From: Leptogranulimonas caecicola | Lineage (GTDB): Bacteria; Actinomycetota; Coriobacteriia; Coriobacteriales; Atopobiaceae | NCBI RefSeq assembly: GCF_023168405.1 | Contig: NZ_AP025285.1 | Coordinates: 1,362,001 to 1,426,000, forward strand | DNA: 64,000 nucleotides | Direction of reading: 5' to 3' | Part shown: positions 59,033 to 63,214 of the stretch, one piece after another | Position numbering within the stretch: the stretch's first letter is position 1 | How the letters are laid out: every line of letters starts with the position of its first letter | The notes under the pieces: model-generated | Told to the model about the DNA's origin: nothing | The model's database searches: none | Seen by the model: only the letters and a program-made list of their open reading frames with translations | Made by a program: the position numbers and the translations under genes

Positions 59033-59598
59033 ATGGCTGGATATGTAGGCACTGCCTATGTGCGTGTGGTTCCTGCCGCCAAGGGCTTCGTGAAGAGCCT
59101 TGCCGGAGAATCCTCCAAGGCAGGTACTGAGGGCGGCAAGGCCTTTGGAGGCGCTTTTGGCAGCTCTCTAGGCCCTCTCAACGGAGCCTTAGGAGCTGTC
59201 AAAGGAGCTGTCTCTGGCGTGGTGAAAGCCACCGTTGCCGGAGGGGCCGCAATGGCAGGCGCCTTTGGCGTAGCCGCCAAGAGTGCCCTAGATGCCTATG
59301 CCACCTACGAGCAGGTGAAGGGTGGCGTAGAAACCCTCTTCAAAGACGCGGCTCCGGCTGTGATCCAAAACGCCCAAGCGGCTTACAAGAGTGCTGGCAT
59401 GAGCGCCAATGCGTACATGACCACGGTGACGGGCTTCTCGGCATCGCTGCTCAAAAGCCTGGGAGGCGACACTGCCAAGGCCGCAGGCTATGCCGATCGC
59501 GCCGTGCGCGACATGAGCGACAACGCCAACAAGATGGGCACCAATATCGTCGATATTCAAAATGCTTATCAGGGCTTTGCCAAGCAAAACTATACGAT
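59033..59598 (+). CDS. Tape measure protein, exon 1
   Basis: First part of the tail tape measure gene, start ATG after AAAGGAGGTGAGAAG (strong). Gly/Ala-rich then ALDAYATYEQVKGGVETLF, ending YQGFAKQNYT plus two bases of a methionine codon. The frame is broken shortly after by an in-frame stop, but continues after the intron, where the family sequence LDNLKLGYGGT resumes. Exons together: 3399 bases, 1132 residues. Confidence 0.9.
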
Positions 59599-60381
59599 AG
59601 ATCTAATGTCTGCTGCCTAGGTGACTATGCAGTAAGCGTGGGTGAACCTTACCAGGGGTGTGGGCTGAGAAGGCCTGCTAACGGTGAAACTCTAAACGCC
59701 TAGAAGCGCATGACAACACCGTGCTAAGACAAAGCTATAAGCAACAGTACAATGGTTTTGTAAAGTGTAGAGACTATGGGTTCGTCACCCAGTACTCTGC
59801 CTATCGGTACGGCAGAGGAAGTGCCCACCAACTTCTTGAAGGAATCAATGGAGCAGTGGAAACCTATCAGCGACCTTCCTGGTTATTCCATTAGCAACGA
59901 AGGAAGAGTTCGCAGAGATACAGACGGTCATATTATGAAGCTTGGAACCAATAACGGTTATCAGCGCATTGTTGTTGCCAAGCATGTCCACCGCCTTGTG
60001 GCAGAGGCATTTTTGCCCGAGCCGGAAGATGGCACAAAGCGATGGGTCGACCATATTGATGGCAATAGGTCGAACAACAATGTCGAAAATCTTCGTTGGG
60101 TTACACCAAGTGAGAATTGCCTGGCTTATGGATACAAAAACCGTATCCAGAATAAAAAGAGACCAGTTCAGGCCACGAACACATTGACCAATGAGGTCTT
60201 GGTATTTGAGTCCAGGCAAGCGGCCGCAGAGTACTTCCATTGCCATGATTCGCAAATATCCTACGGCTACGTCTACAAAAAAGGACGCAAGCGAAACTGG
60301 ATTTTCGAGAAGCTGAAGAGATAGTCCAATCCCGCTGTTGTAAGCAGCGTTAAAGTATTGGGAAACCAAGGGTATTTAATG
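59599..60381 (+). ncRNA. Group I intron in the tape measure gene
   Basis: 783 bases. The conserved R and S elements are seen: GTAGAGACTATGG at 59767-59779 and AGAGATAGTCCAA at 60317-60329, which pair as P7 (GACTAT with ATAGTC). A P9-type hairpin GCTG..GCAGC follows and the intron ends in G. Removing 59599-60381 joins ..ACGAT and GTTAG, giving the family consensus YT-M-LDNLKLGYGG. Splice sites are inferred from the reading frame and a U/G pair and could shift by a few bases. A homing endonuclease is encoded inside. Confidence 0.88.
59848..60324 (+). CDS. HNH homing endonuclease (NUMOD4-HNH) within the intron
   Basis: 158 residues from the ATG at 59848 (GAAGGAATCA upstream). N-terminal NUMOD4 ([20 protein letters not shown]), then HNH with HRLVAEAFL.. 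[21 protein letters not shown], and a C-terminal NUMOD-like DNA-binding helix. Its TAG stop lies inside the intron S element. A longer frame from 59776 overlaps P7 and is less likely. Cuts intron-less genes so the intron can spread. Confidence 0.88.
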
Positions 60382-63214
60382 GTTAGATAACTTAAAGCTT
60401 GGCTATGGCGGCACCCAGTCCGAGATGCAGAAGCTCATCGCCGATGCATCCAAGATGACTGACGTGCAAAAAGCACTCGGCGTCACTGTGGATTCCAGCT
60501 CTCTGAGCTTCGACAACATCGTGAACGCCATCTCTGTGGTGCAAACCTCCCTAGGCATCACCGGTACCACATCTCAAGAGGCCGCTGACACCATCGAAGG
60601 CTCCGTGAACTCGATGAAGGCTGCCTGGGAAAACCTGCTCACCTCCGTCGCCGCAGAAGACTGGGACGTCTTCAACGTGGGAGCGCTGCAGGGCACTGCA
60701 GCCCAGTTCATGGGCACCGTGGAAAACGTCTGTCGAAACGTCGCCAAACGGGCGGCCATCATTGTGCCCACCATGGTGTCGGTGCTGGCTGAGGCCTGGC
60801 CAGACCTCTTCCTCGCAGTGCAAACCGGCATCGCCGACGGCCTGCCAGAAGCCATGAGACAGCCTTTCTTGGACGCCACCAACGGTCTTTTCGACTTTGT
60901 GGCGGGCCTCTTCGACGGCTTTGGCTCTGCCTTCGATCTCTCTAGCCTCACAGGAGCCTTCACGGGTCTAAAAGACGCCTTCTTTGGAGCCTTTGGCGCC
61001 GATGCTACCAGTGCAGGCACCAACTTCGGCACTGCCTTGGGCTCCATCGCCCAGGCAGCCACCAACCTGCTTGTCGCAGCCACTCCTTTGGCTGCCATGG
61101 CAGGAGCGCTGGCTTCTGTGGCCCTGCCCTTGCTTGCCAACGCCCTAGGCTTTCTGGCCGAGCACATGGACGTCATCGTTCCTGCAGTGGGGCTTCTTGT
61201 GGCAGGCTTCATCCTCTTCAAGGCCGTCATGGCGGGCATGGCCATTGTCCAGACGGTCTCTGGATTTTTCGCAGGTCTCGGTGGAGCCGTCACGGCGTCT
61301 GCCGCCCCCATGGCCGCCTCGGTGCCCCAGATCCTTGCCATGGCCGCAGCCTGCGTGGCCCTAGGAGCCGGAGTCCTCATGGCCTCCGCTGGCCTTGCCC
61401 TGCTGGTGCAGTCAGCCATCTCCATCGCCACTGCGGGCCCAGGAGCAGCTTTGGCTCTCGTAGGCCTTGTGGCGGCAGTGGCAGCCTTAGCGGCAGGGGC
61501 TGCCCTTCTCGGCCCCGCCTTGACGGCAGGAGCTGTGGGTATTGCAGCTTTTGGCTTGGCAGTGCTTGCAGTGGGCGCCGGGATGCTTCTGGCAGGAGTA
61601 GGCATCACTTTGCTGGCAACCCAGTTGCCGGTGATCGCTGCCTCGGGCATTCAGGCCTCTGTAGCCCTAATTGTGCTGGCGGCAGGGGTGGCAGTGATTG
61701 GCGCCGCATCTCTCATTGGTGCTGTGGGCATCGCCGCCCTAGGGGTGGCTGTGGCTGCCGCTGCCATTGGCTTGGCGGCTGCTGCTATCGCCACCGCCGC
61801 CTTGGCGGCAGCCGTGGTGATTCTGGGAGCGGGAGCGCTTCTGGCAGGAGTAGGCATCACTTTGCTGGCAACCCAGTTGACGGTGATCGCTGCCTCGGGC
61901 ATTCAGGCCTCTGTAGCCCTAATTGTGCTGGCGGCAGGGGTGGCAGTGATGGGCGCCGCATCTCTCATTGGTGCTGTGGGCATCGCCGCCCTAGGGGTGG
62001 CTGTGGCTGCCGCTGCCATTGGCTTGGCGGCTGCTGCTATCGCCACCGCCGCCTTGGCGGCAGCCGTGGTGATTCTGGGAGCGGGAGCGCTTCTGGCAGG
62101 GATGGGCATGAGCGTGCTTGCTGCAGCTCTGCCTGTGGTGGCAGCCTCTGGAGTGTCTGGGGCCGCTGCCCTGGTGGCTCTGTCGGCGGGGCTTCTAGCC
62201 CTGTCGGCAGGGGCATTGGCAGCAGGCGCCGGAATTCTTGTCATGACTGCGGGCCTTGTGGCCCTTACCGTAGGCCTTGCCGCCTGTGCGGTGGCCTCAG
62301 CCGCCCTGGCTCTTGCCATGACGGCTATGGGGGCTGCAGTGATCTTGAGTTCTGTGGGCCTTCTGATGATGGCCCCGTCGGTGCTCATGATTGCCACAGC
62401 CATGCCTTTGCTGGCAGCCTCTTCGCTGGCGGCAGCCCCGGCCATCGCCGCTCTAGGTGTGGCGGCTGCAGCGGCTGGAGCAGCCCTTCTTCTAGCCGCT
62501 CCTGGCTTTGCGGCCTTTGCTGGGGCTGCAGGGCCTGCAGCAGACTCGGTGGTGAAGCTGGCCTCTGCTTCCAAGCAGATCGCTTCCTCCAGCTCGGCGG
62601 GAGCCTCTGGCCTCAACCGCATGGGCTCTGCAGCAAAGGCTGTCTCTAGCGCCTTAGGGCTGGTATCCACGGCTGGCATGGCTATGGCCACCTCTATGGG
62701 CTCCGCCACCTCCAACGTGAGTGCCAACTGCGAGCGTATGGGTTCCAGCTTTGCGGCCCTGGTGACAAAAGCTCAGCTGGCTGCCCTGCAAATCCAAGCA
62801 GCCTTCTCTTCCATGAGGCTCCATATCCCGAGCCCCACCTTAGGGCCGCTACCCCACTTCTCCATGAGCGGCAGGTTCGACCCTGCCACAGGAGCGGTGC
62901 CTGCCATCGATGTGTCCTGGTACGCTTCCGGCGCCGTCTTTGCCTCGCCCTCCATCGTGGGCGTAGGCGACGCCTCCACCCCTGAGATCGTCACTCCCGA
63001 GGCGCTCATGCGCTCGGTGGTAGACGACGCCCTTCAAGACAACTCCAGCGGCGATGTGACCGCCAGGATCATCTCCGCCTTTGTGGCCGCCCTAGAGCAG
63101 GCCCACATCACCGCCGATGCCTACATCGACGGCCAGTTGGCATCAGAGCAGCTGGCGCCCTACATGGACCGCCAGCTGGGACGGCGCCAGCGCCTGGTGG
63201 AAAGGGGGCTATAA
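60382..63214 (+). CDS. Tape measure protein, exon 2
   Basis: Continuation of the tail length-determining protein. LDNLKLGYGGTQSEMQ, then a long, extremely Ala/Val/Gly-rich hydrophobic region (about 60950-62550) which can form several membrane segments, and a C-terminal globular part. Two identical-looking 84-residue units are tandem at 61591-62094. The opposite strand shows long open frames here because of the composition; they are not genes. Confidence 0.92.
61591..62094 (+). repeat. 252-base tandem duplication in the tape measure gene
   Basis: Units 61591-61842 and 61843-62094 differ at very few bases (for example TTGCCGGTG versus TTGACGGTG and GTGATTGGC versus GTGATGGGC). Each encodes 84 residues, so the frame is kept. 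Confidence 0.9.

Follow-up and report, generated by a model that had tools for sequence, protein, structure and literature searches.

The tape measure (TMP) gene of a prophage in the 64,000-nucleotide stretch of Leptogranulimonas caecicola DNA analyzed here (the window) almost certainly contains a mobile, td-like group I intron of the IA type, for which sequence comparison lets us predict splicing, nuclease activity, and homing. The intron is a 783-nt insert at positions 59599-60381 of the forward strand, within a TMP gene that spans 59033-63214. An earlier note on this DNA had proposed a group I intron with an HNH endonuclease at these coordinates in a TMP gene, and every part of that proposal held: the intron through same-site relatives, empty sites, and covariation, the endonuclease through its NUMOD4 and HNH_3 domains, the host gene through matches to TMP families, and the coordinates exactly to the base. 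At the level of sequence, the insert is confirmed as a real group I intron, far beyond chance, because 11 relatives aligned across the whole insert have its precise ends and its conserved blocks in common and because the core helices covary strongly.

The 5' exon ends in ...TATACGAT (59598) and the 3' exon starts with GTTAGATAAC (60382), and the insert between them starts with AGATC and finishes with TTTAATG. With the insert kept, the TMP frame hits a stop codon at 59618-59620; joining the two exons gives a single open frame of 1132 codons, in which the junction reads GFAKQNYTM/LDNLKLGYGG and the exons together give the motif NYTMLDNLKLGYGG, as in uninterrupted TMP relatives. Excision restores both the host reading frame and the family motif; the restored consensus and the terminal G to which the earlier note had pointed are both seen. 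In group I introns, U is expected immediately before the 5' splice site, as is seen at 59598, and we therefore rejected the alternative of splicing after ATA, which would have the intron end in GG; the uninterrupted relatives likewise read ATG.

The spliced product matches the tape measure families PHROG 6900/3981 over residues 42-279, and the PHROGs recognize integrase, terminase, portal, protease, major head protein, TMP, and Dit genes nearby; the neighborhood of the intron is a prophage. The intron is present once in the 2.0-Mb single-contig chromosome, and its G+C content is 47%, versus 59-64% in the exons. Exon 2 also holds a 252-base unit in two tandem copies that are 99% alike (61585-62100), an in-frame duplication of 84 codons that would lengthen the tape measure.

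In about two dozen relatives, the TMP gene is interrupted by this intron at exactly this nucleotide, and the bearers include phages or prophages of Streptococcus, Lactococcus, Companilactobacillus, Ileibacterium, Gemmiger, and Clostridium. The HNH open reading frame (ORF) matches nine viral contigs (L003-L011; 58-63% identity in the best segment) and Streptococcus phage Javan271, and in all of these, as in phages 38502 and Str-PAP-1, the insertion point is identical to the nucleotide, with ACGAT before it and GTTR after it, and the intron ends are shared. A 27-base pattern conserved in the 5' part of the intron brought up more copies in viral contigs, and the HNH profile brought up others in genomes named Gemmiger sp., Ileibacterium valens, Clostridium sp., and Companilactobacillus nodensis. 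Of 298 genomes from the same class, the window's genome alone has a closely matching HNH. The ACGAT/GTTR flanks are present in 24/24 distinct aligned copies versus 4/95 uninterrupted sites, a count whose 3' half is biased by the search expression; such enrichment would follow from a need for P1 and P10 to pair, or from co-conversion of the flanks. A further copy, from Gemmiger (L125), has a GCTC flank and a matching change in the guide, with one P10 pair changed on both sides.

The earlier note had proposed surveying relatives for the intron-less site. When we took the 80 best TMP relatives, fetched regardless of whether they had the intron, 78 proved uninterrupted at this site and two (L065 and L096) carried it; L093, counted among the 78, bears another insert at a point 22 nt farther downstream. 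The Lactococcus phages 38502, with the intron, and phiLC3, with an empty site, are 97.6% identical up to the junction, and the insert of 38502 falls exactly between the exons with a few changes adjacent to it, as co-conversion would leave.

The ribozyme fold was assessed in an alignment of 25 copies from which the ORF had been removed, and since some contigs are repeated (e.g., L006/L126 and L008/Javan271), all counts rest on the 24 distinct sequences (Table 1). Standard pairs fill 97-100% of the cells in P2, P3, P4, P7.1, P7.2, P8, and P9.2. Two-sided changes occur at 41 base pairs in total, and P2, P3, P3.1, P3.2, P4, P7.1, P7.2, P8, and P9.2 each surpass all of 500 column shuffles, in counts that somewhat favor these helices because they were drawn on the same alignment. 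Sliding the helices by one or two columns lowered the score of all except the two-pair P5, for which the register drawn first was wrong; in the +1 register, P5 is paired in 48/48 cells. Within the insertion between P3 and P4, P3.1 is paired in 91/93 cells and P3.2 in 132/135, with two-sided changes in 2/4 and 5/6 pairs, respectively. P5a is paired in 66/72 cells, and P6 is seen in the window's own fold only.

Table 1. Coordinates of the interrupted TMP gene, its intron, and the elements of the intron (window positions; cell counts are for 24 distinct copies).
Feature	Position	Strand	Remarks
TMP exon 1	59033..59598	+	188 codons plus AT of codon 189; joined frame
TMP exon 2	60382..63214	+	Joined frame
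Group I intron, subgroup IA type	59599..60381	+	783 nt; P7.1 and P7.2 present
P1	59596-59599 with 59607-59610	+	Pairs in all 24 distinct copies; invariant
P10 guide strand CUAAU	59603..59607	+	Pairs with GUUAG 60382-60386 in exon 2; 118/120 cells
P2 hairpin, GUGA loop	59613..59632	+	190/192 cells; two-sided change in 7/8 pairs
P3	GUGGGU 59638..59643 with GCCCAC 59823-59828	+	144/144 cells; two-sided change in 4 pairs
Two-hairpin insertion between P3 and P4 (P3.1, P3.2)	59647..59676	+	98% paired
P4 (ACGGU/ACCGU) enclosing P5 and P5a	59681..59722	+	P4 120/120 cells; two-sided change in 3 pairs
P7 5' strand GACUAU (guanosine-binding helix, element R)	59772..59777	+	144/144 cells; invariant
P7.1 and P7.2 hairpins	59778..59817	+	72/72 and 167/168 cells; two-sided changes
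P8	59829..59838 with 60306-60315	+	187/192 cells; two-sided change in 5 pairs; ORF fills loop
HNH homing endonuclease ORF (predicted)	59848..60324	+	158 aa; NUMOD4, HNH_3, and weak NUMOD1
P7 3' strand AUAGUC (element S)	60321..60326	+	Holds ORF stop TAG 60322-60324
P9.2 hairpin UUGG-GAAA-CCAA	60358..60369	+	96/96 cells; two-sided change in 4/4 pairs
Terminal intron G	60381..60381	+	Base before exon 2

The features by which group I introns are recognized are present: a U.G pair in P1 at the 5' splice site (U59598.G59608), G as the final base of the intron, covariation in the core helices P3, P4, and P8, and the P7 pairing, which the earlier note had also picked out and which forms in 24/24 copies. 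P7 and the short P1 (4 bp) pair in every copy and are invariant, so they lie outside the reach of covariation. The copy in the window has one C.U mismatch in P2 and one mismatch in P8. Two other pairings were considered and rejected. A P3 strand GGUGUG (about 59656-59662) is invariant while its 3' strand varies, and the GUGGGU strand covaries; for a longer P1 using exon CUAU, covariation was absent by eye.

P7.1 and P7.2 lie between P7 and P3 and both covary, which therefore assigns the intron to subgroup IA. Within IA we tentatively take it to be IA2, with a P7.1/P7.2 and P4 region presumably resembling that of T4 td (group IA2), although it differs from td in its host gene and in the extra two-hairpin insertion between P3 and P4. 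The generic group I model of Rfam (RF00028) scores 15.2 bits against a gathering cut-off of 50, which is a database threshold and not a defining feature, and it reaches the cut-off in 0/5 related loci; because those five also miss it, the model is insensitive to the present intron family. A scan of the sequence collection with a P7.1/P7.2 pattern whose gap lengths were probably mis-set gave no match, and the folding energy of the 5' part of the intron alone (z of -1.4) was uninformative.

The product of the intron ORF is a predicted homing endonuclease of the I-HmuI kind. Its NUMOD4 and HNH_3 domains exceed the Pfam cut-offs, with NUMOD1 just under, it matches PHROG 59, and its profile has a sole match among solved structures, I-HmuI of SPO1 (1u3e; E 3.4e-13), which comes from a different host gene. 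AAGGA lies a few nucleotides upstream of the start at 59848, and we rejected an earlier ATG at 59776 because 59848 has this ribosome-binding site and the starts of homologues in its favor. The ORF sits in the P8 loop, and its last codons enter P8, the P8-P7 junction, and P7. Two relatives keep the ribozyme with the ORF absent, namely L119 (278 nt), in which the P8 loop is closed directly, and L111 (312 nt), and in three others (L113, L115, and L116) the ribozyme is retained with at most a remnant of the ORF. Gain and loss of the ORF is the usual cycle of homing genes.

TMPs of this sort are annotated as two genes in databases, and a split ribonucleotide reductase is known to function as two peptides (PMC10448857), which would fit a free-standing HNH gene having divided the TMP into two separately translated, working proteins with no splicing at all. 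We consider this extremely improbable, given that a covarying ribozyme with conserved ends encloses the ORF, that ORF-less versions occupy the same site, and that a start codon for exon 2 is absent at the junction, the first in-frame ATG lying at 60425. That the insert descends from a group I intron but has lost splicing in the resident prophage, leaving the TMP gene dead, also strikes us as very unlikely. The core helices all persist, the two exons and the HNH ORF have uninterrupted reading frames, and the prophage has portal, terminase, protease, and capsid genes, although the single mismatches in P2 and in P8 would be in keeping with decay, and a same-genus genome has a weak TMP match only, which leaves no close relative by which to judge it.

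If the insert is instead a mobile intron that still splices, as we favor, the late transcript would fold from P1 to P10, and an external guanosine bound at P7 would attack after U59598. The freed end of exon 1 would then attack after G60381, giving an uninterrupted mRNA for a 1132-aa tape measure. The HNH protein encoded in the P8 loop would, in a mixed infection, cut copies of this conserved TMP block that lack the intron, probably by nicking, as I-HmuI does, and repair of the cut TMP would copy the intron in.

The earlier note had regarded TMP genes as an unusual home for introns, and in this it was mistaken, since introns of this kind are already known there. The TMP gene is listed among frequently interrupted phage genes, and that of Vibrio phage ICP1 has three introns whose splicing was proven by RNA-seq and RT-PCR (PMC10448857); in mycobacteriophages of Cluster J, capsid and tail genes contain introns that are spliced (PMC3706429). 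HNH genes also lie within the TMP genes of r1t, Javan520, 38502, and Str-PAP-1. Like the window, ICP1 has HNH-3 genes in its TMP introns, but its host is unrelated and its introns are three. The TMP site and the ribozyme are the same in Javan271 (a prophage of S. iniae SF1), whose HNH is 60% identical and whose record carries the annotation "Phage intron," and in Lactococcus phage 38502 and Streptococcus phage Str-PAP-1, although the HNH proteins of the latter two are merely about 43% identical. Lactococcus phage r1t (ORF40/41/42) has an insert with an HNH gene in this conserved block of TMP, but the insert lies 22 nt downstream and has another ribozyme sequence, with the ORF before P7 and not in P8. 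The 1996 r1t paper reportedly placed one ORF inside a group I intron.

Unlike the window, Javan271 has a second intron 22 nt downstream of the first. In this phage (L001:2996-4208; also L008), a first TMP intron of 893 nt is followed by a 22-nt exon (GTTAGATAACTTAAAACTGGGT) and then by a 298-nt insert that lacks an ORF and agrees with the r1t intron at both its start and its end. The first five bases of the 22-nt exon may serve P10 of the first intron, and its last ones P1 of the second. TMP inserts at the r1t-type site are also found in L151 and L152, which belong to the same family as the window's host; the former is 287 nt long without an ORF, and the latter 895 nt with an HNH ORF.

We lean toward a picture in which one intron lineage, marked by the two hairpins between P3 and P4, has specialized on a single codon of a conserved TMP block and spread with it between phages of Bacillota and those of an apparently actinobacterial host, in which a second lineage has its target in this block too, 22 nt away, and in which both introns occur together in some phages, where the two ribozymes share a 22-nt exon. 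For the prophage itself, the gene model is corrected to one TMP in place of two proteins and an HNH gene, which adds to a recognized, under-annotated habit of phages, namely the carriage of selfish introns by their tape measure genes. The 24-copy alignment would yield a family model able to catch introns that the generic Rfam model misses, and the double-intron allele would make it simple to test, in a natural setting, how a very short exon serves two group I introns at once.
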